From positions 12,724,001 through 12,788,000 of the forward strand of contig NC_092562.1 of the NCBI RefSeq assembly GCF_037975245.1: a DNA stretch of 64,000 bases, written 5' to 3'. This document shows positions 12,618-58,009 of the stretch, piece by piece. This DNA is from Apostichopus japonicus (taxonomy: Eukaryota > Echinodermata > Holothuroidea > Aspidochirotida > Stichopodidae). Under the pieces are notes generated by a model. The model saw nothing but the letters and a program-made list of their open reading frames with translations. It was not told the origin of the DNA and searched no databases. Numbering within the stretch: the stretch's first letter is position 1; every line of letters starts with the position of its first letter. A program made the position numbers and the translations under genes.

Positions 12618-13699
12618 GGTAGGAAATGAAGAAGCTATTAGTGGCGTGTCCATGCACAAATATGTACCGTGCCCCTCGTTCCCCTAATGAAATTGATAAT
12701 ATCCCCTCCTCCCAACTCGCCCCCTCCACAATAAAAAACGCATGCAGATTAACAGTTCGTTGACTTCTACTCACCATAATTATGCATTAAAACAAATTTA
12801 ATATATATTTCCGTTTATCTCCAAAGTTCTGCTGATTTGAAGATGCTTTTAGTTCTGGTAAAGTCAAAACCCAGAAAGCTTCAAAGGGCCCCTGGATCCC
12901 ACCCGAGATGACTTCGCAGTGGGGCCTGTGGATTAACCGGAACCGGCATTGTGCATCATAGGTTCCCTCCTTCCCCCACCCCAACCCTCTCCCCGACACA
13001 TTCACGCACTTCCAAACAAATGGCGACGCCACAGCTCTCCTTTAATGTTATATCAGATAATATATTTGGACCATCGACAAAATTCAGGGAATAACGTTCG
13101 CAAGGTTTTGACAACTTAGGCCAATAGGTGTATAGGTCGATGGGGGATTCATACAAGCAAGCCTGGACATCCTTAATTGGTTGATCACTTGTATATTGAA
13201 AATTTTCTTCAATATTCTAATTTAAAAATATATATATAAAGGATTTGAAGACACTCATCTTTTATGTATACAGATAAATACTGGGAAAGATATTTGTCTA
13301 TCGATGACTAGCGGCCCAAAGCAATTATCTTCAACGAGGTTAAATGTTTAACAAACACCATTATTCAATACTAGTGGTCTGTAAATTGAATGCTGCCAAC
13401 GGGTCTGCTTGGCTTAGCAAACTACTTGAGGTTCTATTCAGATGATTCAACTTTTATGGGATTCCTTTCTTAGACCAACATATAGGACTAGTGACCTTCT
13501 TGAAATATCTAGAAATGGGAAAGGAATCCATTTCTTTTCTTTTTGTTGTGTGAATTCGGCTAGAATACGATTTAGTCCAGTGCTCATCAGAATAACAAGT
13601 TTCTGCAATGAGTTGGTTACCGCGCTGCGTTCCTCCAAATACTGACAGGAGGAAAACTTTAGCGTCACAGATGTCTATGGCAAGCCAATTGCTCAATAA
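12618..13699. other. Gene-free stretch
   Basis: No supported gene. Several short antisense frames here (12787-13032, 13442-13711) lack conserved motifs. Confidence 0.4.
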
Positions 13700-14109
13700 A
13701 TCGAAAAACATGGATTATCGGTCGAAAAATCATTTATCGATCGATAAACCATGTTTTTCGATCGATAAACCATGTTTCTCGATAGATAAACATGGATTTT
13801 CGGTTGATAAACACGGTTTATCGGCGAGAATCCATGTTTATCGCTTGAGAAACATGGATTATCACTGATAAACATGGTTTATCGGCGATAAACATTGTTT
13901 ATCGGCGATAAACCATGTTTCTCGATAGATAAACATGGTTTATCTGTGACAATCTATGTTTATCTGCGATAATCCATGTTTTTCAAGCGATAAACATGGT
14001 TTTTCGAGCGATAACAAGGCTTTTCGCCGATAAACCATGTTTATCTATCGAGAAACATGGTTTATCGCCGATAAACCATGTTTATCGCCGATAAACCATG
14101 TTTATCGCG
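13700..14109. repeat. Palindromic minisatellite, about 20 units of 20-21 bp
   Basis: Monomer close to CGATAAACCATGTTTATCG, nearly its own reverse complement apart from the central CC/GG. Roughly 20 units are present, with cores written as CCATG or CATGG so that orientation alternates along the array. I see no unique inverted termini or target duplication, so this is called a repeat rather than a transposon. It lies 470 bp from the foldback cluster. Confidence 0.85.
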
Positions 14110-14574
14110 TAAAAAAAATAGCTACGGTCCCGCACAGTCCGCATATGGACAAGTGCGGAATAATAATCGGCAACGCACAGGCCTAGCAATAGTACACCGT
14201 CATCGATCTGACAAGGTCGTAAATCAACCTGCATAGCTTCATAACACCATTAGGCCCTTTGTATAAACACACATGTGTGGATTTGTTCATGCCTACAGTG
14301 TAGTTCACCATACAGCGTTCACACAAAGACCCTAATACTAAGAAAAAATATGTGGCAGGCGTTGCAAACTACAGTAATTGGTAAAAAGAGGTCATATTAC
14401 GACCAATTGCAGGTTGATTTTGTGATCTCAAGAAACTTTTCCATTAGAGCGTGATATGCAACTAACAAGGCCTGGGAAGTGCCACTTCCAGGAATGTGGG
14501 AGCAATTTTCGGCCTAAATTTTCTTATACTCTTCGCGCCAACTCATGGTGGCGCTACGCTTAGGTGGTTTACCT

Positions 14575-14582
14575 ACACGCTT
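14575..14582. repeat. Left target-site duplication of foldback 1
   Basis: ACACGCTT, identical to 15210-15217 on the other side of the element. Confidence 0.9.
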
Positions 14583-15209
14583 ATGGCGGGCCATCAGTCT
14601 CAAATCATGGGAGATCGACTTATTACGATTTAAATCGGCATATACCAGTTTCCTTCGACTTATACCAGTTTCCTTCGACTTATACCAGTTTCATTCTACA
14701 TATCATCGATTTAAATCGACATATACCAGTTTACTTCGACATATCAACGATTTAAATCGACATATACCAGTTTACTTCGACATATCATCGATTTATTTTA
14801 CTTATCATCGATTTAAATCGATGATAAGTAAAATAAATCGATGATATGTAGAATGAAACTGGTATATGTCGATTTAAATCGATGATATGTCGAAGTAAAC
14901 TGGTATATGTCGATTTAAATCGATGATATGTCGAAGTAAACTGGTATATGTCGATTTAAATCGATGATATGTAGAATGAAACTGGTATAAGTCGAGGGAA
15001 ACTGGTATATGTCGAAGGAAACTGGTATATGTCGATTTAAATCGATGATATGTCGAAATAAACTAGTATATGTCGATTTAAATCGATGATATGTAGAATG
15101 AAACTGGTATAAGTCGAAGGAAACTGGTATAAGTCGAAGGAAACTGGTATATGTCGATTTAAATCGGTATAAGTCGATCTCCCATGATTTGAGACTGATG
15201 GCCCGCCAT
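14583..15209. mobile_element. Foldback transposon 1 (TU-like), 627 bp, 8-bp TSD
   Basis: It begins ATGGCGGGCCATCAGTCTCA and ends with the reverse complement. The outer 65 bp of the two arms differ at only a few positions. ACACGCTT flanks both sides (14575-14582 and 15210-15217). Inside, both arms consist of tandem modules (ATATACCAGTTTCCTTCGAC and ATCGATTTAAATCGAC types), and the axis is the perfect palindrome around 14814/14815. The right arm (about 395 bp) is longer than the left (about 232 bp), so modules have been gained or lost in one arm. No coding region. Arms of tandem repeats plus an 8-bp duplication match the described sea-urchin TU foldback class. Confidence 0.9.
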
Positions 15210-15217
15210 ACACGCTT
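15210..15217. repeat. Right target-site duplication of foldback 1
   Basis: ACACGCTT, identical to 14575-14582. Confidence 0.9.
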
Positions 15218-15267
15218 GGCCCCTTCCTTGGCAAATTCCTCGCTACGCACCTGTCTAACCGTGTCAC

Positions 15268-15275
15268 AATTTGTT
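15268..15275. repeat. Left target-site duplication of foldback 2
   Basis: AATTTGTT, identical to 16368-16375. Confidence 0.9.
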
Positions 15276-16367
15276 ACGGAAGCGTAGAAGGGACATGGTG
15301 ATGAAAGAGTAACGAACTCGTCAAAATGACAAAATTCAGAAAAATGACGTTTTGCCGAGTTTAACAACTGGTCAAAACGACAAAATTATTAAATTTGCCG
15401 AGATACAACAAGTCGTCACAATGACAAAATTCCGAAAATTGACGTTTTGCCGAGATACAACAAGTCGTCAAAATGACAAAATTCCGAAAATTGACGTTTT
15501 GCCGAGATACAACAAGTCGTCAAAATGACAAAATTCCGAAAATTGACGTTTTGCCGAGATACAACAAGTCGTCAAAATGACAAAATTCTGAAAATTGACG
15601 TTTTGGTGAGATACGACAATTCGTCAAAATGACAAAATTCTGAAAATTGACGTTTTGTTGAGATACGACAATTCGTCAAAATGACAAAATTCTGAAAATT
15701 GACGTTTTGCCGAGATACAACAAGTTGTCAAAATGACAAAATTCTGAAAATTGACGTTTTGCCGAGATACAACAAGTTGTCAAAATGACAAAATTCCGAA
15801 AATTGACGTTTTGCCGAGATACAACAACTCAAAACGTCAATTTTCAGATTTTTGTCATTTTGACGACTTGTTATATCTCTGCAAAACGTCAATTTTTAAA
15901 ATTTTGTCATTTTGACGAGTTGTTGTATCTCGGCAAAACGTCAATTTTCAGAATTTTGTCATTTTGACGAATTGTCGTATCTCAACAAAACGTCAATTTT
16001 CAGATTTTTGTCATTTTGACGACTTGTTGTATCCCGGCAAAACGTCAATTTTCGGAACTTTGTCATTTTAACGACTTGTTGTATCTCAGCAAAACGTCAA
16101 TTTTCAGATTTTTGTTATTTTGATGAGTTATTGTATCTCGGCAAAACGTCAATTTTCAGATTTTTGTCATATTGATGAGTTATTGTTTCTCGACATAACT
16201 TCAATTTTCAGAATTTTGGCATTTTGACGATTTGTTGCATCTCGGCAAATTTAATAATTTTGTCGTTTTGACGAGTTGTAAAACTCGACAAAACGTCATT
16301 TTTCTGAATTTTGTCATTTTGACGAGTTTGTTTCTCTTTCATCACCATGTCCCTTCTACGCTTCCGT
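15276..16367. mobile_element. Foldback transposon 2 (TU-like), 1092 bp, 8-bp TSD
   Basis: It starts ACGGAAGCGTAGAAGGGACA and ends with the reverse complement at 16367. AATTTGTT flanks both ends (15268-15275 and 16368-16375). The outer ~145 bp of the arms are about 95% identical. Inside, the left arm is a tandem array of a 52-bp unit (GTCGTCAAAATGACAAAATT, CCGAAAATTGACGTTTTGCC, GAGATACAACAA), for example at 15464 and 15516. After an axis near 15830 the same unit runs in the opposite orientation to about 16260. No protein is encoded; the short frames inside are shadows of the repeat. The termini are unlike those of foldback 1, so this is a second family with the same architecture. Confidence 0.92.
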
Positions 16368-16375
16368 AATTTGTT
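16368..16375. repeat. Right target-site duplication of foldback 2
   Basis: AATTTGTT, identical to 15268-15275. Confidence 0.9.
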
Positions 16376-16863
16376 TCTAAATATCACCAAAAGTCATCAC
16401 AGACTTTCACCAAAAGTTGTTTTGACTTTTCGAAATGAATTAGCTAGACGGACCGCATCCGTAATGAAATTTGGTTTGCCGATGAAAAAGGAAAATATAG
16501 GGCTGTAGCAACCAGTATATATGTATATATACAAAATACCATGAAGCGTGCGAACAATTTTGGGGATGAAAGATGCTACCCGCCGGCACCCAAGCCAATT
16601 CCCCCCCCCCCCAATATTTGAAATAAATCGCCGCCCGTGTATACAGAAGACCGTTAAAGTCATGGGAAACAGCCATTGAGCATAATAGGAACTCGTTTTT
16701 AACTCTATGGAAATAGCCTAACTGCATAATAATATAAAGGCGTCAATAGTCGAATGGCTAAGCAAAGTCAAACCTGTTTTGGCATTGTATTTTCTAGATT
16801 GTTTGGAAAGCGCACAGATGCATCGCGCGTATAGTGCCCTATATAAGATTTTATTTACATTAC

Positions 16864-26700: not shown

Positions 26701-29700
26701 ACTACAATGAAATTAAAGCTGACAGAATGAATCAATCATTGACTTCACCCATGTAAGCAGGGCACAAAATCTTGTGAAATTGTCAAGGGGGGAAGGGGGG
26801 TTGGCATAACCCCTTACTCTTTTATTTCTGCCCATATAACTGGTGGATGGTACGTATGGCCTTTTTCGGCCAGGTTATTATCAATCCGCCGCTAATGGTA
26901 CACAATGCGTCTAAGAGAACAGATGATGTAAGATTCAAGGTCATTTTAACGAAACAATGTAACGTTAATGTCCTCTAATGTGCTGTACTGTTATGGTTAT
27001 GAAAGGTTTATATCGCTCATGCTCTCTGCGTGCGATTGGGCCAACAGTATGAAACTTCATGTCTTGTATTTCCTCCACAAGGTTCAACGCCAGAAATTGA
27101 TGGTAACATTACCACGATCAGATTGGTTGACGGAAGTTCTCCTTACGAAGGACGTGTGGAAGTCTATCTTCATGGTTCTTGGGGGACGGTGTGCGATGAC
27201 TCATGGGACATCAATGACGCAACGGTGGCATGCCGGCAGTTGGGGTTCGGTCGTGCTAACTTGGCAGCTTCTAGCGCCCGATTCGGAAGTGGTAACGGTT
27301 CCATTCTTTTGGATAATGTAGCGTGTGACGGAACAGAAGCTTCTCTCGATCGATGCAATCACAACGGCATTGGAATTCATGACTGTGGGCACGCAGAAGA
27401 TGCAGGAGTTATCTGTTCGCAAATTACCAGTGCTGGTATGTATATGCCAGATTAGACAAGCACAGACAATAAAGCTAGGAGAGAAAAAGGGAAGGAAAAT
27501 GAAAGAAAACAAAAACAATCAAAAGGAACACATCGAATGAAACAGACTTTCAAGTGATCAGAATAGCATACATTTGCAAGTCCTTATGAACTCACTTAAA
27601 AGTGTTATAGAGTCAATCATTCGAACGTAAACCTTTTAGTTTAAATATATCATACAACATCCTTAAATTCCTTAATAAAATAGACCTTTCACCTTTGGGA
27701 GACGGATGACATTGAGGAGACGACATGTCATGCTGACTTCCAGATTGACGTCTTCAATTTACTACCTATGCAACATACTGTTATAGGGCTGTCTCATCTT
27801 TCTAATTGCAGTATATTCATTCACTGTTGTGTTTTCTCAACATGGAGAACGGGTGTATGGGGAATGTTGTGGGCTGTATTTTGTAAGCATGTCAACTTGG
27901 GTTATTGTTTAACATTAGATGGAATATGAATCCCCAGATGTGAATTTTATCCATCTATTTAAATAACATGACACATTACATCTGTGTGACCAAAACTGTA
28001 TCTCGTTACTATAGTGAATGAAACCCACCCAACCCCAATTTTAACATTAGATGGAATATGAATCCCCAGATGTGAATTGATCCCCAGATGTGAATTTTAT
28101 CCATCTATTTAAATAACGTGACATATTACATCTGTGTGACCAAAACTGTATCTCGTTACTATAGTGCATGAAACCCACCAACCCCAATTTTAATCAGAAA
28201 GGCTGCCTTTTGAAAAGAAGTTCACACAGAAGCGTTTACGAAAAAGAAAATATATACATCTCTCTACTAGCTTCCGAGGACATAAGACTTGAAGGGGGAG
28301 AATCTCCATACGAGGGTCGTGTTGAAGTTTACTTAAACAACCAGTGGGGAACCATATGTGATGACGAATGGGACATGTTTGATGCGGAAGTAATATGTCG
28401 TCAGCTTGGCTTTGGCGACGCTGTTTCGGCACCTTCGAGAGCCCGTTATGGGCAAGGTACCGGGCCAATTCATCTGGACAACCTGCAATGTATTGGAACC
28501 GAGGAAAGAATTACAGATTGCAACCACAACGGAATAGGGATAGAAAACTGCAACCATCATGAAGATGCGAGTGTTGTCTGTGGAAGTAGCCAAGGTAAGA
28601 TAGATTGCTTCGATGGAAACTGCATGTTTACTTCATCACCGTGACGTCATGATCACGCGAGATGGTCACGATGGTCAAGTCATGGTGCAGCGGTTAGAGT
28701 GACCACCCCACAACCATTAGGTTCCTAGTTCAAATCATCACCAGGAACCATGTTCTCTCGACCTGTCCAAAATTGCTGCTTTGCAGTGTTGTTGAACTGA
28801 GAAGTTTTCTAGTTCTCGAATTCCGGTTCTGTTCTTTCATTGGTATCAAAACAGCTTCCTTCACCCGTGTCTGCAAAGTAGTGATGATGCATTGGGGGAA
28901 TTCACCTCCCTCAGTATTTGAGAAAGTGGTTAGATGCTGAGGTATTAGAAGGTGGTATAAGTCAGTGTTCAACAGCGATCATCACATGGAAATGGTTTCA
29001 AATGAGCTTCCGTTGGCTTCCTAACACTTGGAAAGTAGTGAACGAAAAAATGTTCCCTTCCCCAAAAATTTGTATAGGAGACAAGGGAGTGCGAGTTTCT
29101 CAGTACAGTGCATCGCTTCGTTTACTTCTTGCTCAGACAGAACGTCTCGAACTAGGGTTGAGAGTATTACTCTGCAGATTGGTGAATTATTGGTTCGCGT
29201 TTCCTAATTTTTGAAGTTTTTCGCACACTTGATGAGAGGTCAGATTGTCACTTGTATTTGCAACCAAAGAGTATCACTTTCAAGTTTTCTTTGAGTTATT
29301 GGTAACTGCATTCGAAAACGTAAGCTTGTAAGTTTTGTAGTTAAAGTTAATTGTCACAACCGTAACTGATCGTGGTACTCATACGCAGGTAAAAATAAGC
29401 CCCGTGGTTTGCAGCGTTGTGTGCAAAATTTTCGTGTTAATGATTTGGGGATGTATTTCTGAAAAGATCAGTCCAATAGTTTTGGGTAACCAGTGACTAT
29501 CGGATCGTCACCACTTTTGCTCTAAGGTCATGACTTTTTCTTTCGTAAATAAATATTTTATAGCTACCAATGAATCTATTCCATCCATACGACTGGTCGG
29601 CGGAGCGTCGCCGACCGAGGGCAGAGTTGAATTACAGATCGGTGGTCAATGGGGAACGATTTGTGACGATCACTGGGATCTGGTGGATGCTACAGTCGCT

Positions 29701-31352
29701 TGCCGGCAACTTGGGTAAGTCCATCAATCTAGTCTCGTCAAGATTGGGGGCCTTGTACCGTCTGTCGGGATATCATGTGGATGATGCAAATTTTCTATTA
29801 GAAGCCGTTCAAGTTGGTGTTGACGATGATGATGACGGTGGTACTGTTGGGGGCTATGGTAGTGATGGTGGTGAGGTTGACGATGATGATGGTTGATAGT
29901 GGTGATGATGGTGATGATGGTGTTGTAGATGGTGGTAAAGATGGTGATAACGGTAGTGGTAATGATGATGAAGATTAAATTAGTGGTTATGGTGGCGAAG
30001 ATGGTGAAGTTGGTGGTGATAATGGTGATAACGTTGGTGGTGAAGGTACATTATGTTTTACCCGAGTCCGAAACGAGTGTTGAGTGTTACACAATTAATG
30101 TTTTTCGTACTTCAATTGTATAATTACTCATTACAACAACGAAAAAAATGAAACCAAATAGTTTGCATCGAGTAAGGACAGTTTAATACACAAAATGTTC
30201 TTTACAGACGGGTTGACATCCATAAGAAATTCCAAAAAGTATATTTCTATCTTTGTTCTCAGATTCGGGATCGCAACTGCGTACACTACACGAGCATACT
30301 TTGGTAGAGGGCAAGGCGATATTTTTCTTGACGATGTTCAATGTACTGGTAGAGAGGTTGATTTGCTATCGTGTGGTCATCGGCCAATCGGATTGCACAA
30401 CTGTGGCCATTCGGAAGATGCTGGTGTCATCTGTTCTCCTGGAAGTAAGCTAAACCAGAGAGTGAAACTTGCCTCTTTGCTTATTGTTCTGAAAATATAA
30501 CAGTTGACGTTACATAATTGTTATAGCCAAATCTCAAATATCATGTCAGCAGTATAATTATTGGTATCAAGTTCTTCTACAAGGTATACATACAACTGTG
30601 CACGAAACATAAGGAGGACATGAATCGTCTGGAACACAATTATCTTGTCGTGTGACCAGAAAGCCTAAACTTTGACTTTCTTTCATTCATATTCATATGA
30701 TTTTAGGGGTTTTCCCGGTTTCATAAAATAAATCAGTCTTGAGCGACAGATGATTCGACCCATTCGTGTGATGACGACATCATACTGCGCATGGGCGTAC
30801 ATGATTTGCTTAACATATATATGATTTGATTTTCACACACATCTACAGTTCGGTTAGTTGGCGGTAATCAAGCTCACGAAGGACGTGTAGAGCTATTTTA
30901 TAATGGTGGTTGGGGAACCATTTGTGACGATCTTTGGGATATCAACGACGCGAACGTCGTCTGCCGTCAGCTTGGTTATGGGTCCGCATCTGAGGCGGCT
31001 ACCAGCGCAAGATTCGGGGAAGGAAGTGGCGCGATCCTATTTGATGATGTTAGTTGCACCGGCAATGAAGCAATGGTCTTTCAGTGCTCACATAGAGGAA
31101 TAGGAAGCCATGACTGTGGACATAACGAAGATGCCGGTGTCATTTGCCAATTAGATAGTACGTTAAGTTATTGCTCTTTATCAAGCTACATATATTCATC
31201 CTTCATTGCCAAGCCCTTACCTCCCACTCCCCCATCCGGGGTTTTACCAATGAATTGTATCTACAGCTGTCGCTGCTATACCTCGTAACTTTCAAATAGC
31301 GATCGTATTTATCTCACCTTTCCTTTGCTGGTCGTACTCTTCTGTGGAAGTA

Positions 31353-31429
<77 letters not shown>

Positions 31430-32440
31430 GATGTATGTGTGTGTGTGTGTGTCCATATATTTAGTGTATGACTGCTTTAAATTTGCCTATTGATTCTACC
31501 TAGCTATTAACTTGGAATGACATGTCCCGATGCTTCTTGTATGTCATCATATTTTGAGTACAGTCGATATGAAGTAGTGAAGATAAGACTTGTCAGTGTT
31601 GGGAATATAATGGGGAGGGTAGGGGGGTGGCTATGGGCAGGAATCTCAGAAGACTGAGTGAACATCTTATTCTGATTGAGAAGTTGAAGTGACCATCCTA
31701 CTCTGTCTAATTGTTTAATTGCACAGTGAGACTGGTTGGCGGATCACTTATAAACGAAGGTAGAGTGGAGCTTTATTACAATGGAGCTTGGGGAACGGTT
31801 TGTGATGACAACTGGGATATCAACGACGCCCAAGTAGTTTGTTCATACTTAAATTATGGTGGCGCGGTAGAGGTAAGTATATCAACGCCACGGTATGTTG
31901 AGATACGCAACTAAATTAAGAGATTAGCATGTTAACTAGACTAACTTATCTGAACGTCGAGATCGAGATATCTGAAAGTATCGCACCTTTACAATTTCTA
32001 CCAATATTTTTTCCCATTTTTCTCCTTATTGCTTGCATGATTTTTTGTTGTTGAAATTCAGGCAACGACGAATGCCAGGTTTGGACAAGGTAGTGGAAAT
32101 ATCCTTTTGGATGACGTAGACTGTTATGGATATGAGATTAATATCCTTGCTTGCCAACACAACACAATAGGGAGCAGTAATTGTGGCCATGCTGAGGATG
32201 CCGGAGTTGTATGTGAAGGAACAGGTTCGCTACCTTTTTGTTTTTAAATTATTCTTTTCCCGGTGAAAGGTTGTTGGTTGGTCAGAAAGAGACTAATACA
32301 TTTTAAGTTTTGGAGACAATTACTATGAGGATTGAAATGATCGGAAACGTGCAAAATTATCACTAACATTTCAATCTTCTATTTATATAGCCTCGAACTT
32401 CAAATATATTTATATATCTAATATATGTATCTATATATAA

Positions 32441-32473
<33 letters not shown>

Positions 32474-35400
32474 CTAAGAACAAAATAAAACAAACAAACA
32501 AATATAACAAAATAACTCACGCTCATATGGACAGTCTTTTTCAAATTTTCACTTTCACTTAAAGTAAACAGGTTCATAACTAAAATTGAAGAGTCGCAAG
32601 TTAAATTTAAAATGATAAGGGAATACCGTATCAAATCCTTCAATTTTGACTAATAAGTTAAGTATTAGTGAAATTGTTGAAAATTACAAACATCGCCAGC
32701 ACACAAATATTATAAAACATATTGCTGTATATAGGAAGACGGGAATCAAATCTTACGTGTTGCTTCAAATTAGCAACTTTATTGGGTTTTACTTGGGCTG
32801 GGAATATAGAAATGTCGTTATGCATTGAAAAACTTCTTATCAAGTTGTTAACTATTGATTAAATAATCTAGCACGTCAAGGCTGAGAGCCTTTTTTTTGT
32901 TCTTCAGATATTGATGTTTAGGATGACATTTATACCTATCTTCATTTCACGAAGACTTTACTTTGATTACCTGTTAACATCATGTTATACGAGGTTGTCT
33001 ATTATATTATCAACCAATGTTAACAAATAACAGAAGTTAACCATGCAAGGATGATTCAAGACACAAAGTTTGATGTGTATTAGACTGTTACAAAAAATGC
33101 TACCGGCATTCCAGGTCGTATATCTGTAACCAATTTTAATTTTTGCAAAATGACACTTTAAACAACTGCGATTAATCAATTAAAGTGGCTGGACTCCGAA
33201 GTCTAACGCAAAGACCGTAATGTTGCTTCTTATTCTGTTCCAAACCAAACCTCAATATGTGAACATAATACATTTATGGCCTCACATGACATGTTGAGAA
33301 TTCATTACACATTTTGTAGAGTGTTCGGTGCCTTCAAATCATAAGGTCCCTGGTTCAAGTCACTCCAAGATTAATGTATGTCGTCCAGTTACAGAGTTGT
33401 TGACAATTCATAATGATGGACGTTAATTATGTACCTAACATACTAACTTCGGCCAGCTAGTGGCTTTGATAAGCCAATGAGGCTTCTTCTCGAGCTCCTG
33501 CTTGCAGGAGGATCTAAAATACAATACATACATAACAAATTTGTCAAGAATGAATGCTGTTGAAAGTCATCCGCAGGTAATATATTGTTTATTAGAAGTT
33601 TAAAGAAGATAGATTGATCTAGATATTTATCACTTTGTCTATTTTTACAGATACATTGCGGTTGGTGGGTGGAAGTTCCGAATCAGAAGGTCGAGTGGAG
33701 ATATTCCATGCGGGACAGTGGGGGACAATTTGTGATGACCGTTGGGATATTAATGACGCACAGGTATTTGGTCTTGCATAAGGACGTCGATGAGCTGTTG
33801 AGGTTAACGGAGGGGGGGGGGGTGGAGAGGAGGAAGGAGAGGGGATATTGTTGTAACTGACATAGAAGGTTGAGCTAGTGTTATCCTTTGGGATGGGTCT
33901 AATCGCATCTGGGCAAACCTCATCCAGAGAACAAGGCTTTCAAATCCAGGTTAATGCGTTATGAAAGCAAAAATACATAGCTCCTCTTGTAGTATGTAGA
34001 CGTATGTAAATGTTGGTATGGGGATGCTGCCTATATTTCTAAAAATATTACAATCAGGATCCAATAAGGACTCTAAGCCACGAAAAGTGTAGGGAGAGAG
34101 GCACTGAATGCATTAATGTCCTCCTACGAGAGCGGAACATATTGGCTATATTCATGCAAAACGTTACATAGAAACTGTTTCTTTCTTTATCTCATTATAG
34201 TAAGAACGCACTTTATTTTGAAATTCCCTTTTTATTACGGGGAAGGTGAGAAGTTGATAATCAATTCGCCTGCATATTTTCATTTCGACATAGGTCGTTT
34301 GCCGTCAGCTGGGATATGTTGCAGCCTCATCGGCGAGTAGTCTTGCCCATTATGGTGCTGGCAGTGGACCAATTTTTATGGATAATGTTGGATGTACAGG
34401 GTTCGAGTCTTCCTTAATGGAGTGCAGCCATTCGGGACTAGGAAATCATAACTGTGGTCACCATGAAGACGCAGGAGTGTCTTGTACAGCGTCACGTGAG
34501 TGCCACGCATGCTAACTGCCGCGTATAAAGGAATACGTTTTATGGAATCGCTAGAAAATGTTTGGTTTAGATTTAAATGTTACATGCTTCATGATAATGG
34601 ACCTTCGCAGGCGCGTAGCCAGGATATTTGCCAAGGGACGGGCGAAAATAAAGGCAAACTAAAAAAGGCAAACTATCAGAGCCGTAGATACGGCATACCA
34701 TAGTTGGCGTGAAGGGTACAAGACAATTTTGGCTTTAAATGCCCCACCAAATCGCTGGAAATGGCACTTCCCAAGCCTTGTTAGTTGCATTTTAGCATTT
34801 TCTCTTTTGAAATTATGAGCGATATCATAGAAACATTAAAAATATATAGCCGCGAAGGGGGTGGCTGCCCCCCCCCCCCCGTTGCTACGCGCCTGGACCT
34901 CCATTATGGCACATATTAGGTATCAGCATATAGGTAAGAATGTGTTGTACAAACGTAAGCTGATATCGAAGGAATAAATAACTGTTTGAGGTTTCCGAGC
35001 AAGTTTGAGGAATTAAAGACGTCCCTTTTAATGATTGTGCATTGTTCATTTAATATAACTTGACTAATTTCTGTTTGTAATTTCTATCTCTGTACGCAAC
35101 CTTATAGGTCATCTTATTTCTCCATCTTTGTAATCGTACTCTGTAAATGTATATGCGAATGCCACCGGTAAACTGATGGACAAAAAGAAAAGGAAATCAT
35201 GCCAACACTATCTTTAACATTGTGAGATTTCCAATGGGAGCTGCGTGGTTGGTGTGTGTGTGGGTAGGAGGGGGGGGGGGGGGGTTGAAGCTAAAAGTGG
35301 TTCACAGCTCGTGAGAGTATGCTCGGTGTTACGAACAATGGTCTGTGTCTGTCCATTCAGACTGAGCATGATCCAATCAGACTCAGCATGATCCATTCAG

Positions 35401-38400
35401 ACAAAGCACGATCCAGTCAGACTAAGCATGATCCAATCATCAAAAGGTGGATTACCCCCCTCCCCCCACCCCGTTTGTTCTTGATGTCTACCAAAGAAGC
35501 ATACATTTCAATGTGCATGTCCTCTGCTTATCTTACAATAGCCAACTATTGCCATTGACAAACATCGTTTGACCTGTCTGCTTTTTCGAAATATTTATTT
35601 CGACATTTGTTTATTCGAAATATATATGACTGTTGGTTTTCTCGTTTGTCTATTCCTTTTCTTTCTTTCACAGAATAAATTCATTTATCTGCACATGATA
35701 GTCCAAATTGATGAATATTGTTTTGTGTTTTTTTCTCACTCCTATAAGGTGCAATTCGGTTCGTTAATGGTAGCTCATTTAATGAAGGTCGGGTTGAACT
35801 TCTTATCAATGGTGAATGGGGGACCATATGTGACGATTACTGGGATATAAATGACGCCAACGTGCTTTGCAAAGAAAATGGATTTCCGTCTGCCATATCC
35901 GCCGTCGGATCTTCTCATTTTGGTAGGGGTAGTGGACCGATCCATTTGGATGATGTAGACTGCAGTGGGCAAGAAACGTCAATATTCAACTGTAGAGTAA
36001 ACCAACAATCCAACTGTGATCATTCCGAAGATGCCGGTGTAGTATGCGAATCACCAGGTAAGATATTTTGTGAACTTTGGAAGTTACTCGTATTGGTAGC
36101 ATATATGCAGTATTCAGAAATCGCTGGGTTTCGAAATCAAACATTTCTCTATCATGAAATATTTTTTTATGAACGTTTTTCTTTGAACTTACAGTCCATT
36201 TGGTCGGTACTGAAAATGATAACGCTGGTAGAGTTGAGGTTTTTGTAGAAGGAACATGGGGAACAATTTGTGACAATGACTGGGACATAAATGATGCAAA
36301 TGTTGTCTGCCGCCAACTTGGTTATTCTGGTGCAACAGAGGCTTTCAATGGGGTACGTTGGCATATTCTTAAATTTTACTTGAATAAAATTGTAAAATAA
36401 GTTGGCAAGTTAACGTATCATATTTAATTAAACGATATAATAACATTTCAAAGTATAGTGATGCAGTAAACAACACTTATTGTTTATATTTCAAATATTT
36501 GGTTCCATTTGTATATGACGCAATCGAGGTTAGAATGTTAAAGATATTTCAAGTTGACGTAAACTATCATATGAAAAGCCAGATATGGCAGCACATGCCT
36601 TAACTGCAACGACGATCTCTAGTTATCGTTCTCAGAGGAATAGCATATTTTCTAACTTAAAAAAAAACATAAATATGTTTGACACATTCAAACTCCAAGT
36701 CGCTCTTTTTATGTTTAAATATGTCAATAGATTTTTGCCTTCTAACTTCAAATAGTTAGTGAAATATCAATTTGTGTAAGACCGGCGCTAATTCTATAAG
36801 TTTCTTTTTGATACAGCGGCAATAGGGGAATTGTATAACATAGGTTGTAATCAATTATCAAAAAAAAAATTTTTTAACTGACAATACAAACTTTGAGTGC
36901 AGAACGTATATAGAGGCCAAAATTCGTCCCTGACTTTATCTTGAAATGTCCGTGCTTTCCTTTTATCACAAACACTTTCTTTCTATAGGCCTTCTTTGGT
37001 CAAGGTTCTGGACCTATTGTTTTAGATCAGGTCCAATGCGATGGAGACGAAAGGTACGTGCTAGAATGTAGTCATAGCACCCTTGGTGACACCAATTGCG
37101 GCCATCACCAAGACGCCGGTCTTTCTTGTGGTGTACCAGGTATGGTTAAATCATAACGTTATCGTCGTCTTAGTTGCAACATTATATGTGTACATCATAA
37201 GACGAGGAAGAGAGAAAGACGCAATGTGTTAGGCAAGATTAATTGTACATCAAAATCAGGTAGAAGTATCAAGTCTTCACTACACAAAATGTACTTGCCC
37301 CACCAGGTGCCACCTAATGAAATTTGCCTTATCGCCTACTTATTAATTTTATTTTACTTTATTTTCGAAACTCCTCGCAAACATAATTTTGCTCTAATCA
37401 AGATGCATAGTTTGGAAAGTAAGCACTCTTCCCACGCGGACTTGTGATATTTTACGGCTGTTTCCCTAATACACCGCTATTTAGGTAGTAAATTTGGCAT
37501 CTAGAGATATTTGTCTCACTGGTCCAATCTTCCGAGATCCTAAGTTTGCTGCTGAAGTACACATGCTCTTGTTGCTTCTTGAATACGTCGGCAGAAAATG
37601 TTTTTCACAGGCCTAGGTGATGGCCATAGTACCATTATTGTAACAGAGGCTGTTTTGTCTACGCTGTCTTGGACAAGACATTGTGTATAAGTGTCAGCGT
37701 GCTCCTATTTCGTACTAAACCAAGTTGCCTACCCTTCTTAACAACGTTATGTTTCATTCCGTGGCTGGGGTGGGTGCTGTATAGGCCTGCATCTAAGTGA
37801 GGGAATTCTACTCAGCTTATGGATATGTCTGGACTATCACAGTTGTACTGAAAATTAAACGGATAGTAGAGAATACCCATGAATCTCCGACGTATATCGT
37901 TGGACGATCGATATCCCCCTTATCAGCATCTACGATTTCTTGCAAGGATGATCAACTGTTGAAGGACGCTTTCCTTTTTTGGTATCTTAAAGTACGCCTT
38001 GTTGGTGCCAGTGTCCCCTACGAAGGTCGGGTCGAAATTTACTACCAAGGTGCATGGGGAACAGTTTGTGACGACAGCTGGGATATAGCTGATGCTAACG
38101 TTGTTTGTCAACAACTGGGCTTTGGCGCCGCCTCCCAATCATTCTCCAACGCCCACTTTGGCGAAGGGAATGGGTTGATTCTGTTGGACGAGGTCCGGTG
38201 CACTGGAGCAGAACCGACTTTGCTGGATTGCCCACACAACAGGATTGGTTATCACAATTGTAGACACCATGAAGACGCGGGAGTCAGCTGTCAATCACCA
38301 GGTAAGCAGAGACGTTTGCGACGATCAACCCAAGGGAAAGAGATTTAACTTGAGTAATGCTATTAGCAGGTCCGTAAAAAGGATATTTTGGTGGTTCAGT

Positions 38401-41400
38401 TGATTGCTTAGCAAAATTGTTGAAATTGTTCTGAATCTTTCAGTGGAAACCACGTCCTCATATTATTTTTTATCTGATAGATATACTAAATTACTGATAT
38501 TTTGTCATTATAAATTCATCTGGCAACAGCACAATGGATAATATCATCAGGCCAATACAGCTAAAATTGCTATTTGTTTCTGTATAATTCGTCAACTTCA
38601 TTTGTCCACTGAGGAAATGATTATTTCTTCAATAAAGATACATTTTGATGGAATTCTAATTACTGAGAACTTGAAGTGTTATGCGAACAATGCAAATGTA
38701 TCAAGGTCTTAAGGATAAATCAAAATAAGAAGATTATAATAGCATAAGTAAAGCTTTTTGAAGGCCAGTTGCCCAGATGACATCACATATCCCCTACTGT
38801 GATCCGACTTTTTGGAGTAGTTGAAGGCTAAACCATTCAAAATAGGTAACATCGAATAAATCATATTTCGAGTTAGGGACACGATATTGAGATGGCGGTT
38901 CAACCAGCAGTGTGGAATAATTTCCTCTTCAATATTAGTTCCACATTGCTTGTCACCAGAAGTTATTTGAATATAACTGTCCAATCTGCGAGATTACATT
39001 TCAACATATCTGCTCGTACGTTTTAATGACCTTCGTTTTCCGTCAAATTTTCATCTCGACTGCTTCACCATGAATTACGGATATGTTACTGAATTACGGA
39101 TATGTTATAAATGTATATAAATGTTATAATATGTTATAAATGTAACTTAACGCCAAGTCTATATAGTCATGAGCCTTCCTCCCTGTCATTTGGTGTATGC
39201 TGTAGCAGTGACCTGTGTTCTTTCAAAGAACAACGGTATCGACTCGATCTCTCTGATTTTGCTCGTGTTATAGTTGTATTGATGGTTTCATAACATTTTT
39301 CTCATAATTTGATTTCTATTTGCAAAGGAAGTTTGTGAGGATAGGTGGAACATGGCTGACGCAATTGTTGTCAATAGGGAACTTTTTAAGTGCAAAAATG
39401 GAAATAGATATTTGTTTACCCAAACGGGGCATTTACTATTTATGAAAAGGGGCACTTTTAAGGTTTTTCACACACACGTGCGTTCATTCTCAAGCCTCCG
39501 CCGTCCCTGGTCAAAACAGACAATTAACAGTCTTTCCTAAAGTTAGTCTAAATAAGTGCAAACGTTAAGTCACGTCCTAAAGTCAAAATCTCGAACGAAA
39601 AGTACAAAATTTCAAAATCTTGAGACGAAAAAGTCGAAACATTAATATGTAACCCCCCCCCTTCCAAGAATATAAAATCGAAATTCGACACGTTAAGCCT
39701 TTAACACGTCAAAGTTAGACAGTGGACTCTCTTGTTTCCGTTTCTTTATCTCTAATCTTGACGTACTCATCTCGACCTCGGACTGTTAGGTCTTTTCAGT
39801 CTCGGCTTCAGTATCGATATGTAGCGCTTTCTTTGTTTCGTTTTGTTTTGTTTTCTATTGAAAGTCTCAGCTAGTCTTGAGAAAAAAGTCAAACAATAAA
39901 ATAAACAACATATATGTCAACTCTCCTCTCGATAATTTGTTAACCGTGTTTTTGTTGCCCGTGATTAATTTAGATGCGGTACGAATTGTTGGTGGCAAAG
40001 CAGATAATGAAGGGCGCGTAGAGGTTTTTCATGATGGCCAGTGGGGCACTATATGTGATGACCAATGGGACTTGAACGATGCAAATGTGGTCTGTCGACA
40101 ACTAGGATACTCTGCCGCTCGATCTGCCAATACCGCTGGGGTATCAAATCCTGGAACAGGACCCATACATCTGGATGATCTCGAATGCACTGGTGAAGAG
40201 ACGGATATCTTCGAATGCAGCCATCCTGGTATTGCTGTCACAAACTGCAACCACGAGGAAGATGCTGGAGTCGTGTGCGCCGAGCAAGGTAAGTATAGAA
40301 AACAAACTGGCGACATGGACGAAATTTATCTTACCTGTTGATTAAGAACTGTTTCAAACTATCGAATACATTTCTTTTAGCTCGTGTGAGTATAAAGAAA
40401 TTCTTAACAATAGTTCTTAACAATAAATTTCAAATTCGTTCAAACGAAAGTTAAAAGCTTACCGCGTGACGGTGTGGAAGTGCGTAGGCACTTTCCATTA
40501 AATGAATTTGTATGCAGTCTGAGTCAATGCAGTCTGCGTAACCTACGTATGCTGACGCTGTTTCAGTTTGATTGTCGTTACTGCAAATTTGAATTTTTCG
40601 TATAAATGAATTAGCAATTTGTTATTACGAATTTGAAATTCGTTGTTTATTAGCAATTAGTAAGGACTTAATACATGAATACATCAACAGGTCCATATTG
40701 GGCCACCGCATTTTTGTGTATTCAATATCGTTCAGTTAACTATTAATTTAATGGGTTGTTGACCTTCAAATTGAGGGCGACAGACCTTGATGTTGCCACG
40801 AACTGTGAGTATAGCTTCGATTATTCTTGTTTAACGCTTTCGCTCGAATGAATGTTTTTTTTTTCCCGTTAAGCTCTGCATTTCATTTGATTGTGTGAAT
40901 TTGCTGCGAAATATTATTATCATATTTCGTAAAATATCACCATAATTCCCTAAAGAAAACACAAACTCTTTCAATCCCCATGTCACACATCTTCTCATTT
41001 TGCGACACAATAGACAATGTTAGGATTGTGGATGGTCCATCTCCGAACGAAGGTCGTGTGGAAGTCTTTATGAATGGCGAGTGGGGCACTGTGTGCGACG
41101 ACGGCTGGGATTTGTCCGATGGAAACGTAATTTGCGCACAGCTTGGTTATCCAGCTGCATTGGAGGTGTCGTCAAGGGTAAGATATTGTTTGATCATTAT
41201 TTTGGCATTATTTTAGCAAAAAATGTATTAATTGGCAACCTACTATAAACTTCGCCTGGGGAGATAAATTGTAAAGGAATCTCAATATGGTTGTCGCAGC
41301 ACTAATTATAGATAATATTTTCAAACGAGTTTATATAATATATATGCAGGCGTTATACTCAATACCCAAGGAGAATGTATGGCAAAATGAAGGGATACAA

Positions 41401-44400
41401 TTTTCCTTTTAAGTTTTCCACAGTGAATGTATCAGCAATAATTAAATACGTCATGGATGTTGGTGATTCTGTACTGAAGATTGGTACGAGAGTTTCATCT
41501 CAGACGTATTAACGAACGTGCGTGGCTGACACGACTTTATTTACGAGTCCTTTAAACTATGAAAGGGTCAAAATACATTTTAATTTCCTTTATGTTTAAA
41601 TGCATCCTTACAATGCAGACTATGCTACGATTTACAGTCTGTTTTACCTCACACGTTAGAGGTTAGTATACATTATCAGAGAATGTGGGTTTTACCAGAA
41701 AAAGGTCAGAGGGGTGGGATGGTCTCTGACCTCCCGTGATACTAACATGGCCAACTATAACGAGTCATTCACGTGATTTCCTTAACCGGAATATAACCAC
41801 CAAAAAAAAACACACATGTAAGGTCGATTGTACTAGTCCCATGATCAGTATTAAAGAGTTCTGCTACTTCCTCCGAGCTCTGATTTTGGTTTCTGATTTT
41901 GTTTTCGAACCTGTCGCTGTTTACACAAACAAGATGTTCAAAATTTGAACTTTAACGTTGCTCTATATTTCAAGCATAATCAGCAAATAAACTATAGAAA
42001 TCGAGAAGCTATTGATATATCTCGTAATTCGTGCGTGTTCTCTCCGAAGGCTCAATATGGTGAAGGACAAGGCCCGATTAATATGGACGACGTTGATTGT
42101 AATGGTCAGGAAGCTCGATTAACACAGTGTCGCTTTCAATCTGAAAATAACTGCCAACATGACGAGGATGCTGGTGTCAAGTGCGCGCTCGGAGGTAAGA
42201 TATTGTTTTTTCTCTTTCATAATTTATGATAGTTCAATAATAAAATTAAACTTAACAACTTAGCTGCAATTTGTCCTACACAAACAGAGCCCCCCCCCCA
42301 CCCCACCCCCAAAGGAAAAAGAATGCAGTTCATTGCAGCCTCAACAATGGTAATAGACTCTTTACTATATATTGAACAATTGAAGTACTGTTGCACCAAG
42401 CTACACGAATACCCAGCAGTTTACTAGTCATTTCCCGCTCTTTCTGTGTAGACTTTGGCAAACTCCTTGTGTCACCGAGAACATGTTGATACAGTGCTTT
42501 CTTTTCCATCTAATGGTGCACCGCATATTACCATAATTTGCATAAATGTATTGCTTTTTTTAAATTTTTTTATTAACACAGTGAGACTTATAGGTGGAAG
42601 ATCTGCCACAGAAGGACGAATAGAGATGTATATCGGGGGACAGTGGGGAACAGTTTGTGATGACGACTGGGGACGAGAAGACGCGGAGGTCGTCTGTCGA
42701 CAACTTGGCTTCAGTACTGTCATAGCATTCTACGGTGAAGCTCACTTTGGTGAGGGTACGGGTGACATCTTCTTCGATGATCTGAATTGTGATGGGAATG
42801 AAGACTCTTTGGTATCTTGCCCTCATGCTGGTTTGGGAGTCCACGGATGTGATCATAATGAGGATGCTGGGGTATCTTGTGGCAACGAGTGTGAGTATTC
42901 AAGGAGCATTGCGGTACCAATGTTGTCAAGTCATGTGATACAAATATGTAAACCTTGAAACTTGAACTTGAACTTTGACATTACTGTCTTTTGATTTTTT
43001 ACAAAAATGGCTTAACAAATGGCGATAATATTTTCACTCTATCGTCACGCCAAATTATGTTCTATATTAATTTCAGATCCTATCAGAATTGTTGGTGGAA
43101 AGAGCGACCGCGCAGGTCGCGTGGAAATTGAAATCGATGGAGAATGGGGTACTATCTGTGATGATGGTTTTGGCGACACAGAGGCTGACGTCATATGTCG
43201 TCAGTTAGGCTTCGCGTGGGCAGAAGTAGGTTACCAGTGGGGAGGAGCTCGATTTGGAGAAGGTACAGGCCCAATTCACTTGGATAATTTACGTTGCTCA
43301 GGGACAGAACACTTTATCACTGACTGTCCACATGGTGGTATTGGTGAGCATAACTGCCAACATCATGAAGATGTGAGTGTATCTTGCGAAGTACCGGGTA
43401 AGTTATACTGCACTTTTCTTCTTAATGTTTTGATACTGTTTTGTGGGACTGTACTTTTTTTGCTGTTCAAAAGCATTGTTCAAAAGCATGTTCAAAAGCA
43501 AAAATATATTGGGAAGTGACAAGGACTCTGAGCTCTCGATTGTAATCATTTAAGCGATTGATAACACTGGCGTGCACAATGGGACAGGAGAATCCCCTCA
43601 CCCCCCCTCCCTCTTTCCAACCTCACATAAAAAAAACGTATTATGTTGCCTTTAGAGCTACTTATATAAACCTAGCACTCGGAAAATAATATGCACCACT
43701 TCACGTGATAATAATTTATGTTTCTGGGGGAGGACCCTAAGTCATAACCCCTCCCACCCCTTTATTAAGTTTGGGATTCGCCTCTTGTCTCTACTTTAAT
43801 CAGTTGGGTAAATTTTCAAGTTTCAATTAGCACAACCATGCGTTAAGGGCTACTAATGTAGAACTAACGTATTGTGTCAATATATCTTGATGTCTTACTT
43901 GATGTCTAAATATTTACTTATATAGGTTTTCTTGTTTCATTGGCGAGGATCCCAAACCTCCCTCACCATGGGGGTCGGCTTCCATGACCCGAGATCAGAA
44001 TCCTCTCCTTTATAATAATGTTAATTCGCCTCTAGTCCTTAAATAAATCTACCTTAATCAGTCGGAAGTAATGTTTGAATTTGTACAACATTGCGCAAGC
44101 CACTAATTGGCACCCAAACACTTTACGATTATGCTGCATGGATTACAAGCTTTGTGACGTGGTGGCGTCTTATTTACTGGACACTGAATTTTTTTGTTAC
44201 GTTCAATTCACATTTCTGTTCATTTGGTGCTTAATATGTTTATTTTGGTATCGAGTCTATGGAAACTGGAAGAACATTTCATGCTATGTTTATGTCCACA
44301 GTAAGGTTAGCTGCATCTTCTAGCATCACAAGAGGTCGCGTGGAACTTCTCTATGAAGGCAGATGGGGCACTGTATGCAGTGACGAGTTTGATGATAACG

Positions 44401-55500: not shown

Positions 55501-58009
55501 TAGATAACGTAGACACGAACCCAATGGAACGTATGTATCATAAGTCAGTTCAACATGTGATCCAAACATTAAAAGTAAAGTTAGGGCGTTTGAAGGGAAA
55601 CCCCGTCACTAGACTTAAATAAGTGTCAGTGTGTAACTCAGTGTGTGTCTTCGAACTTCCAAGCGATGGTCATTATTGGTGCTGACGTTACCAGCATTCT
55701 GATTGGCTGAAAACTCCGTAATTGCAAACTTGCTTGGGAAGAAAATGTTCGCGCCCCGGTATGGCTATGGACCTGAGTATAGAGGGAATTTTGTAGTTTA
55801 ATAACAAAGGATTACGATAAAGAAAAAAACATGTAAATACCTTCACTGACCATACTTACGATAAAGGGATAATCTTCAAAACTTCATGAAGTAATTTGAA
55901 ATTTATTTCTTCTTCTTTCTGTAGAGGTTCTGGCAGCAAAACATCATGATATTCTCAAGACAATCAATTGGAACACTGTGAACAAATTCGACCTGGTGGA
56001 CTCGGTAAGTGTTCAATGGGGATCTTCAGCATTTATGCATCAGTACACTGTCATATCGCTCCTTACAATAGCATAGATACGGCTCTGGACCCTAATGCGC
56101 GAGATCTGTACTGTTCACATATCTCCAAGGCTTTTGCACGGCGCGTTGTAATATAGCTAAATGTTTAAAAAAATGTTTTAAAAAAGATCTCGTCTTTATT
56201 AATTACGAGAAGAATCGCAGGTTTATAAGTCCAGTTTATTGCATTTCGGAGACTTGGGAACAAGTTTGGTATCACACCACAAATAATTGCTCCCATTGAC
56301 TTACACACTAAACTCTTCACTTTCCAAGGTTTATAATAGAGCATATGTACAAGTTTTCAACTGACATTTCCTACCCAGCATATGATAGCTGATGACTTGT
56401 GCTATCATCAAAAATTCAACTTTTGCCACCATGACCATTTACATTTGAACTAGAAGAGCCCTAAGTTTGCCATAGTGCTCCCTTCCCCATCTGCTAGACG
56501 TCACTGCGGAATCTTCTTGTTTCACCTTATAACTTCCAGATTATGTGTATTTAGATGCTTCACACCTACAGGCTTCGAATATTTGTCTTCATTATCCGTT
56601 ACTGCAGAGTAAGGAAGTGTATCGCCCTTTGAAACTCATATCGCGAATCTAAAACCGGCACTTACATATTTGCCAAGACTATTCAGTGATGTGAAGCTCA
56701 AGGCAGCAAACGCTGAACATGAGCTGTGATCCCAAATGTCACACAAGACCTCAATTAATTTGCAAAAAGATGATTAACTGTAAAATAAAGAAACAAAATC
56801 AGCTGACTTGCAAGGATAAACATCAGTCACCCTTGTTATTGCCAGATGCATTCATACAATACCACCAAATTTGAAAGCTTCATGTCTTCGCGGCCACATT
56901 AAATTATACGAAGATTTTTTATTCAAACCTCCAGAAAAGTTCACACAATTTCCTCGAGGCAACCACACAATTGACAAAATGTCTCTCAACCTCAGAAACT
57001 TCCAGAGAGAACTGGTTTCTTCTAGGGTTTTGAAAAGAGTATAGTGTGGTGTGGAGGAGGGGGAGGGGGTGGGGAGTAATCGTTATTTTAAGTGTTTACA
57101 TGTATTCTATGTTGAGTTACATTGTTTTTCATTTTAATCACATTTCAGGATGACTGTGATGGTGTCTGCCAAGCTGAAATTCAAAAAAGCCGGAAGATAT
57201 TAATCCACGATGTTTGCTATAAGACGGATACTACTGCACCTGATATCTCAAATCAATCTTTTATCAACCATCTAAATCATCTTTACGTTATCGATAAGTA
57301 CAAACTCTTGTATTGTTTTGTACCTAAAGTCGCCTGCACTAACATCAAGAGAATATTACTTACAGGGTTAGACTTCCTTCAACCGAACCAAGAAATCCAA
57401 CATATTGACATTCACGTAATGGCGGATAGTGTGCTTCCGCTTTTGAGCAACTTCAAGCCAAAAGACATAATGTATCGCTTAAACGAGTATCAAAAAGTCC
57501 TGTTTGTCCGTGAACCGATATCGCGGTTAGTTTCAGCGTATCGCGATAAACTGGAGAAACCTACTAATCAAGATTCCATTAATTTTAGAAAGAAATTTAG
57601 TGCCAAAATAAAGAAACTTAAAGACTCGGTAGATGATCTTACGAATGGCATAGAGTACAATGCCACTTTTGAAGATTTCGCTTCTTACCTTGGTGATCCT
57701 TCCACAGTTTTGGACTACACCGAGGACCACTGGCGACCAATCAGCGACCTCTGTATGCCCTGTCAGATCAAGTATGATTTCATAGGTAGATTTGAAACTC
57801 TAACCCGAGACAACGATTTTGTCATCAAAAAGTTTCTCCTCCCAGATTCTGCGGACCTTCAACTCCACCCACCAACTAACCCAACCAATAGCTCACACCG
57901 TTCAACTATCGACAAGTACACGTCAAATCTTTCGAAACAGAAGATGAGGGCGTTGTATGAGAGATTTCAAATGGATTTCAAATTGTTTTGTTATAATATC
58001 GATATATGA
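52348..58009 (+). CDS. Carbohydrate sulfotransferase, HNK-1/C4ST family (Sulfotransfer_2)
   Basis: Coding exons 52348-52480, 55925-56004 and 57149-58009 (133 + 80 + 861 = 1074 nt, 357 aa plus stop), with phases 1 and 0 matching and donors GTAAGT/GTAAGT. It transfers sulfate from PAPS to a hydroxyl of a glycan, in the Golgi lumen. Seen: a short basic cytoplasmic tail and signal anchor (RRNARVTLMMLLLLTVLIVL, about residues 8-27), the 5'-phosphosulfate loop YCFVPKVACTNIKRIL (about 126-141), the 3'-phosphate motif REPISRLVSAYRDK (about 192-205), and the family block HWRPISDLCMPCQIKYDFIG followed by RFETL (about 265-289). Length is normal for CHST8-14 relatives. Which sugar it modifies cannot be read from sequence; chondroitin/dermatan 4-O-sulfation is the nearest guess. 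The ATG at 52348 has A at -3 and gives the anchor directly. Confidence 0.88.
52496..52534. repeat. (TA)n microsatellite beside a donor site
   Basis: Begins about 15 nt after the donor at 52481, inside the first sulfotransferase intron. Confidence 0.9.
52693..52775 (+). repeat. 83-bp direct repeat, copy 2 (intronic exon remnant)
   Basis: Near-copy of 52247-52329, preserving the leading ACAG that could act as a splice acceptor. After it the sequence diverges and the start codon and membrane anchor are missing. Confidence 0.9.
54560..54825. repeat. Simple-sequence and hairpin cluster in sulfotransferase intron 1
   Basis: A G-run at 54577-54602, an imperfect hairpin AGCTCAAACCAGC / GCTGGGTTGAGCT (54698-54726) and (CCAT)n near 54755-54795. 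They may be parts of one old repeat. Confidence 0.45.
55366..55400. repeat. G-run element end
   Basis: CAGCGACGTAGCCAGGAATT followed by a G-run resembles the CAGTGGCGTAGCCAGG termini seen elsewhere in the window; the other end was not found. Confidence 0.4.

Follow-up and report, generated by a model that had tools for sequence, protein, structure and literature searches.

Sea urchin TU elements are the classic foldback transposons of echinoderms, with modular inverted arms, a deletable middle segment, insertions, and 8-bp target duplications. The length of the duplication is a mark of the enzyme group, being 8 bp for hAT and P elements and about 9 bp for Mutator elements. For many foldback elements no enzyme is known, and a clear signature of ends and duplication narrows the search for one. 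According to the available text of PMC4079207, most foldbacks seem to be Mutator elements, with exceptions; Tetris, described there and assigned to Mutator by its authors, is built of ~220-bp repeats, makes 8- to 10-bp duplications, and has arm repeats that seed satellites. Galileo, of the P superfamily, has long, internally repetitive arms, and tandem repeats change arm length in one of its subfamilies and have been proposed to act as extra transposase sites (available text of PMC3573991). In the available text of PMC10045372, complete IS3EU families always have TA..TA ends and usually 6-bp duplications, and GingerRoot has 6-bp duplications and mostly TA..TA ends. A literature search for IS3EU together with foldback returned a single paper, PMC8268682.

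Here we analyze two families, A and B, represented side by side in a 64,000-nucleotide stretch of the Apostichopus japonicus genome (the window). Compared by description only, they share with TU the inverted arms of tandem modules, the deletable middle, and the insertions but differ in having 6-bp rather than 8-bp duplications. They resemble Galileo in their long repetitive arms, whereas Galileo is flanked by 7-bp sequences and has a transposase of the P type (PMC3573991, available text). Like Tetris, they are nonautonomous foldbacks with tandem-repeat arms and an autonomous partner that was not found, but the 8- to 10-bp duplications and ~220-bp repeats of Tetris (PMC4079207, available text) contrast with duplications of 6 bp and modules of 20/41 and 52 bp in A and B. 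With IS3EU and GingerRoot, compared by ends and duplication only, they share TA..TA ends and 6-bp duplications, and their host genome holds integrase-like genes, one of the two scanned being IS481/IS3-like; the differences are that the A and B copies examined lack a transposase and that arms of tandem modules go unmentioned for IS3EU/GingerRoot in the available text of PMC10045372. In the foldback literature on sea urchin, echinoderm, and Apostichopus, no description of either family appeared in the titles and the openings of abstracts among the matches listed, subscription papers lying outside the search. We consider it likely that A and B are nonautonomous foldback cut-and-paste transposons with a 6-bp target duplication, moved by an IS3EU/GingerRoot-class enzyme and lodged in an older copy of a dispersed repeat, C.

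Two foldback elements nested in a dispersed repeat

The features of the locus are as follows (positions in the window).

About 13673-16863: repeat C, whole span in the window, host of both insertions
13673..14581, strand +: first piece of C; start good to a few bases
About 13697..14110, no strand assigned: palindromic-module array (~20-bp modules) inside C; limits approximate
14576..14581, strand +: left 6-bp target duplication of A, CACGCT
14582..15210, no strand assigned: element A, 629 bp; ends TATGGCGGGCC...GGCCCGCCATA; arms of 20/41-bp modules
15211..15216, strand +: right 6-bp target duplication of A, CACGCT
15211..15274, strand +: piece of C between A and B
15269..15274, strand +: left 6-bp target duplication of B, ATTTGT
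15275..16368, no strand assigned: element B, 1094 bp; ends TACGGAAGCG...CGCTTCCGTA; arms of 52-bp modules
16369..16374, strand +: right 6-bp target duplication of B, ATTTGT
16369..16863, strand +: last piece of C, matched in sister copy L077; gap at 16631-16689, right limit approximate

A first-pass annotation had recognized here two unrelated elements with inverted tandem-module arms, and this description holds. The arms of A are 204 nt long with 97% complementarity and are made of 20/41-bp modules; those of B are 540 nt long with 92% complementarity, are made of 52-bp modules, and meet near 15822, with no separate core in the window copy. The window copy of A likewise lacks the ~581-bp core found in longer A copies. 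Such inverted module arms are far beyond chance, and the self-folding energy of the A strand is −274.8 kcal/mol, versus a mean of −62.2 (standard deviation, 4.4) for 20 shuffled sequences.

The same annotation had the two families landing 66 bp apart, which is true, but it missed that both lie inside one dispersed repeat. Repeat C starts near TCTATGGCAAGCC, with its last match near TTTACATTAC, and a query with positions 13640-14180 returned 121 matching stretches from the best 40 scored of 189 candidates. When sister copies L076 (contig C3) and L077 (contig C15) were aligned to the window, C was seen to be interrupted by A, to resume at 15211-15274, and to be interrupted again by B. In both sister copies the A site is uninterrupted, reading CCTACAAGCTTGG where the window has CCTACACGCT, then A, then CACGCTTGG, with one base differing, and the B site is uninterrupted as CACAATTTGTTTCTAAA. 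Both empty sites are therefore directly visible, and both insertions are younger than the window's copy of C. Each target 6-mer is single in these empty sites, which alone cannot separate a 6-bp from an 8-bp duplication. C was not taken for a third TA..TA element, since GTC precedes TATGGC in all three of its copies compared.

Element ends and the length of the duplication

The first-pass annotation started the elements at ATGGC and ACGGA and gave each an 8-bp duplication, a reading that predicts a varying base in front of the element. Instead, an extra outer T stands at 399/404 exact A ends and 84/87 exact B ends genome-wide, and a T precedes the end in 72/72 A and 16/16 B distinct end contexts in the subset of loci that were fetched. 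Since the preceding base is a constant T, the element ends are TATGG...CCATA for A (TATGGCGGGCC...CCATA) and TACGG...CCGTA for B (TACGGAAGCG...CCGTA). The elements lie where the annotation had put them, except that each end moves outward by one base (A, 14582-15210; B, 15275-16368); both have the TA..TA termini of IS3EU and GingerRoot.

The duplications that it reported are real but 6 bp long. Among paired copies, an exact 6-bp duplication of the IS3EU/GingerRoot kind flanks 26 of 38 A pairs and all 12 of 12 B pairs; two further A pairs (L048 and L054) have exact 7-bp duplications, and 10 of the 38 have neither. The last group consists of L003, L016, and L072, with 5/6 bases matching; L061, with 4/6; L014, L015, L032, and L094, with 3/6; L021, with 2/6; and L090/L091, with 0/6. 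Just 3 of the 50 paired copies fit the 8-bp reading perfectly, namely, L044 and the two window elements, where A and T by chance stand as the outer bases. Anyone reading one locus alone could therefore take a 6-bp duplication bounded by TA ends for one of 8 bp.

Pairs with exact ends were hand-chosen as opposite ends at short distance, in two batches (26 A and 6 B, then 7 A and 5 B). Relaxing the end search to ≤2 mismatches per 18 bases brought in five more A pairs, L014, L015, L021, L032, and L072, and B pair L062, whose duplication is exact; it also placed L051 at its true outer end, where the duplication is exact. Omitted from the duplication table were internal-end pairs (relaxed-search rows L027, L030, L053, and L061), same-place repeats (L009, L039, and L040), and single-end B loci (L010, L065, and L066). 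L050/L051 and L014/L015 have common flanks and are probably duplicated loci rather than independent insertions.

Genomic copies, variation, and age

The genome searched comprises 671,581,487 bases in 35 contigs, in which exact terminal sequences were counted. The A terminal 20-mer occurs 202 + 202 times and the B terminal 22-mer 39 + 48 times, with 0 occurrences of either reversed-pattern control; a variant with CGTGGG accounts for 99 of the 404 A ends. The first-pass annotation would have abandoned its reading had other copies with different duplications been lacking; many such copies exist, and its view of two different foldback-type transposon families is borne out. Given the inverted module arms, many copies, target duplications, and empty sites, A and B are real DNA transposons, and the mechanism is ordinary in kind: nonautonomous transposons nested in a repeat.

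The central nonmodule region is present in 21 of 25 A copies examined. For 16 of these 21, picked by hand, the cores (~581 bp) were aligned, giving a median K2P distance of 0.027 over 120 pairs (mean, 0.037; maximum, 0.132), with L047 the most divergent. The A core has no long frame, the longest stop-free frame in that of L058 being 57 aa. The six paired B copies examined consist of arms only. The median distance among A cores and the host-repeat copies free of inserts support fairly recent movement of both families, as the first-pass annotation had supposed. Four A copies (L044, L045, L053, and L061) have an additional exact end within the element, which growth and rearrangement of the arms by recombination would be expected to produce.

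Several copies are unusual in form or setting. In L084 (C17:5128810-5128900), a B copy has shrunk to a 42-bp near-perfect palindrome of both ends, with the last base changed, and still has a 6-bp duplication, TACAAC; the CATG common to both arms suggests an internal deletion. At C17:31947188-31949890, B arms are repeated in a longer satellite-like array reminiscent of the Tetris-derived satellites. A copies recur every ~173 to 227 kb on C19:31.4-32.4 Mb and C20:0.26-0.66 Mb, and ten A ends lie inside 0.77 Mb on C8 (11.56-12.32 Mb); these recurrences and the cluster are probably segmental duplications.

Transposase search and class assignment

None of the copies examined showed a transposase between its A or B ends. 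Positions available for pairing covered 232 of the 404 A ends and 87 of the 87 B ends. Among these 232, the nearest partner within 20 kb is a − end for 35 + ends; all of these pairs are ≤3.2 kb apart except C19:2017950/2024995 (L072), at 7.0 kb. The B ends form 10 opposite pairs ≤1.5 kb apart. An autonomous copy with a transposase, which the first-pass annotation had proposed to look for, was not found among these listed ends (232/404 A and 87/87 B). The 7.0-kb A pair (C19:2017850-2025120) encloses a 979-aa open frame, which we take to be a LINE-type endonuclease/reverse transcriptase, and what are presumably more LINE-like frames. In 20 long A copies, the long frames belong to arms or flanks, apart from a piece inside L050 and L051 that we take to resemble a LINE reverse transcriptase. 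Next to one A end (L033/L068) lies a 101-aa frame that is similar, in its first part, to the C-terminal portion of a 674-aa open frame on contig C11 (L069). The L069 protein had no Pfam match better than the cut-off (only HAS-barrel, at E 0.24), and L069 contains no A or B ends. Because the rest of the 101-aa frame matches a common stop-ridden repeat, this link was set aside as too weak a transposase lead.

Integrase-like genes are nevertheless plentiful. The integrase-core family rva_4 (PF24764) has at least 143 genomic matches, several without internal stops, among the best 150 of 224 candidates scored. Two rva_4 proteins were scanned. That of L073 also matches Pfam rve (3.7e-7) and NCBIfam IS481 (E 1.4e-7) and IS3 (0.025), all under the curated cut-offs of those models, and a PDB sequence search with it gave nothing useful; that of L070 matches rve weakly (0.0028) and has no NCBIfam match. 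When 109 of the 143 places were compared with the listed ends, none lay within 15 kb of a B end, and three lay near an A end: on C4 (9.7 kb), on C12 (13.7 kb), and at C16:42952095 (11.1 kb). The C4 and C12 loci are on the outer side of their A end; the C16 locus is inward of the + A end at C16:42940947, which has no partner among those listed, and no listed A end is close to the paralogue of this locus on C17. The genome therefore does contain candidate enzymes of a suitable kind, unlinked to A or B ends, and their presence is not evidence that they move A or B. Separately, the rva_4 copies L070/L071 and L073/L074 (with L078/L079) are 97 to 99% alike throughout the ~5 to 6 kb compared, on different chromosomes, and the similarity continues beyond these limits, so that their termini lie outside the compared stretches. 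The paired places are C16:42952454/C17:3919262 and C6:9736497/C12:10489044.

That the arrays are satellites or palindromic repeats born in place, and not transposons at all, has next to no probability: the arms are indeed tandem repeats, and some B arms form the longer array at C17:31947188-31949890, but hundreds of exact ends are dispersed over the chromosomes with different target duplications, and the sites without insert reject such an origin. Membership in the TU family, with its 8-bp duplications, is improbable as well. It would account for the architecture (long inverted module arms, a middle segment sometimes missing, insertions inside) and for the perfect 8-bp reading at both window elements, but that reading is perfect in just 3 of 50 paired copies, and the outer T is present at 399/404 A and 84/87 B ends. 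With 6-bp duplications and TA..TA ends, the 8-bp reading of the first-pass annotation is unsupported, and so, by that criterion, is TU membership. The same 6-bp length rejects hAT and P foldbacks (8 bp) and Mutator foldbacks (~9 bp).

A further alternative, which we regard as possible yet rather unlikely, is that A and B are nonautonomous members of another or undescribed superfamily that also makes 6- to 7-bp duplications. The two exact 7-bp A duplications fit it, no transposase was found in the copies examined, and Dada likewise makes 6- to 7-bp duplications (PMC3706591, available text). Dada itself, however, is described there as having no terminal inverted repeats and as targeting multicopy small RNA genes, whereas the ends of A and B are long and inverted and their target 6-mers vary widely, and membership in Dada was rejected on these grounds; moreover, the TA..TA ends fit IS3EU/GingerRoot. 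Because these ends and the 6-bp duplication match the published IS3EU/GingerRoot signature, a transposase class other than that of TU is indicated, and the corrected signature probably moves A and B from TU-like 8-bp elements to IS3EU/GingerRoot-type foldbacks.

Under this IS3EU/GingerRoot reading, a transposase supplied in trans, most likely integrase-like and related to IS3/IS481, would recognize the short ends TATGGCGGGCC and TACGGAAGCG and excise the element, which would insert at a 6-bp (sometimes 7-bp) staggered break whose repair would leave the duplication. A and B would each have jumped independently into the older copy of C. Unequal exchange or replication slippage most likely expanded the tandem arm modules, which may serve as additional transposase-binding sites. 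With two families that share a signature in the same genome, it becomes possible to test whether a transposase favoring repeated binding sites drives the formation of tandem-module arms. A and B are new families of a known kind, and if the assignment is true, the combination of a foldback architecture with an IS3EU-like signature is new. The chances seem to us about evenly balanced that IS3EU/GingerRoot-type transposons evolved the foldback build, doing so in at least two unrelated families within a single animal genome, and that this build is therefore convergent across at least three transposase classes, in which case the classic echinoderm TU elements may deserve rereading for a TA..TA, 6-bp signature.

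Elsewhere in the window, positions 27003-43519 hold a row of open frames that we take to resemble scavenger receptor cysteine-rich (SRCR) domains, and positions 57116-58009 hold a 297-aa open frame presumably resembling a carbohydrate sulfotransferase.
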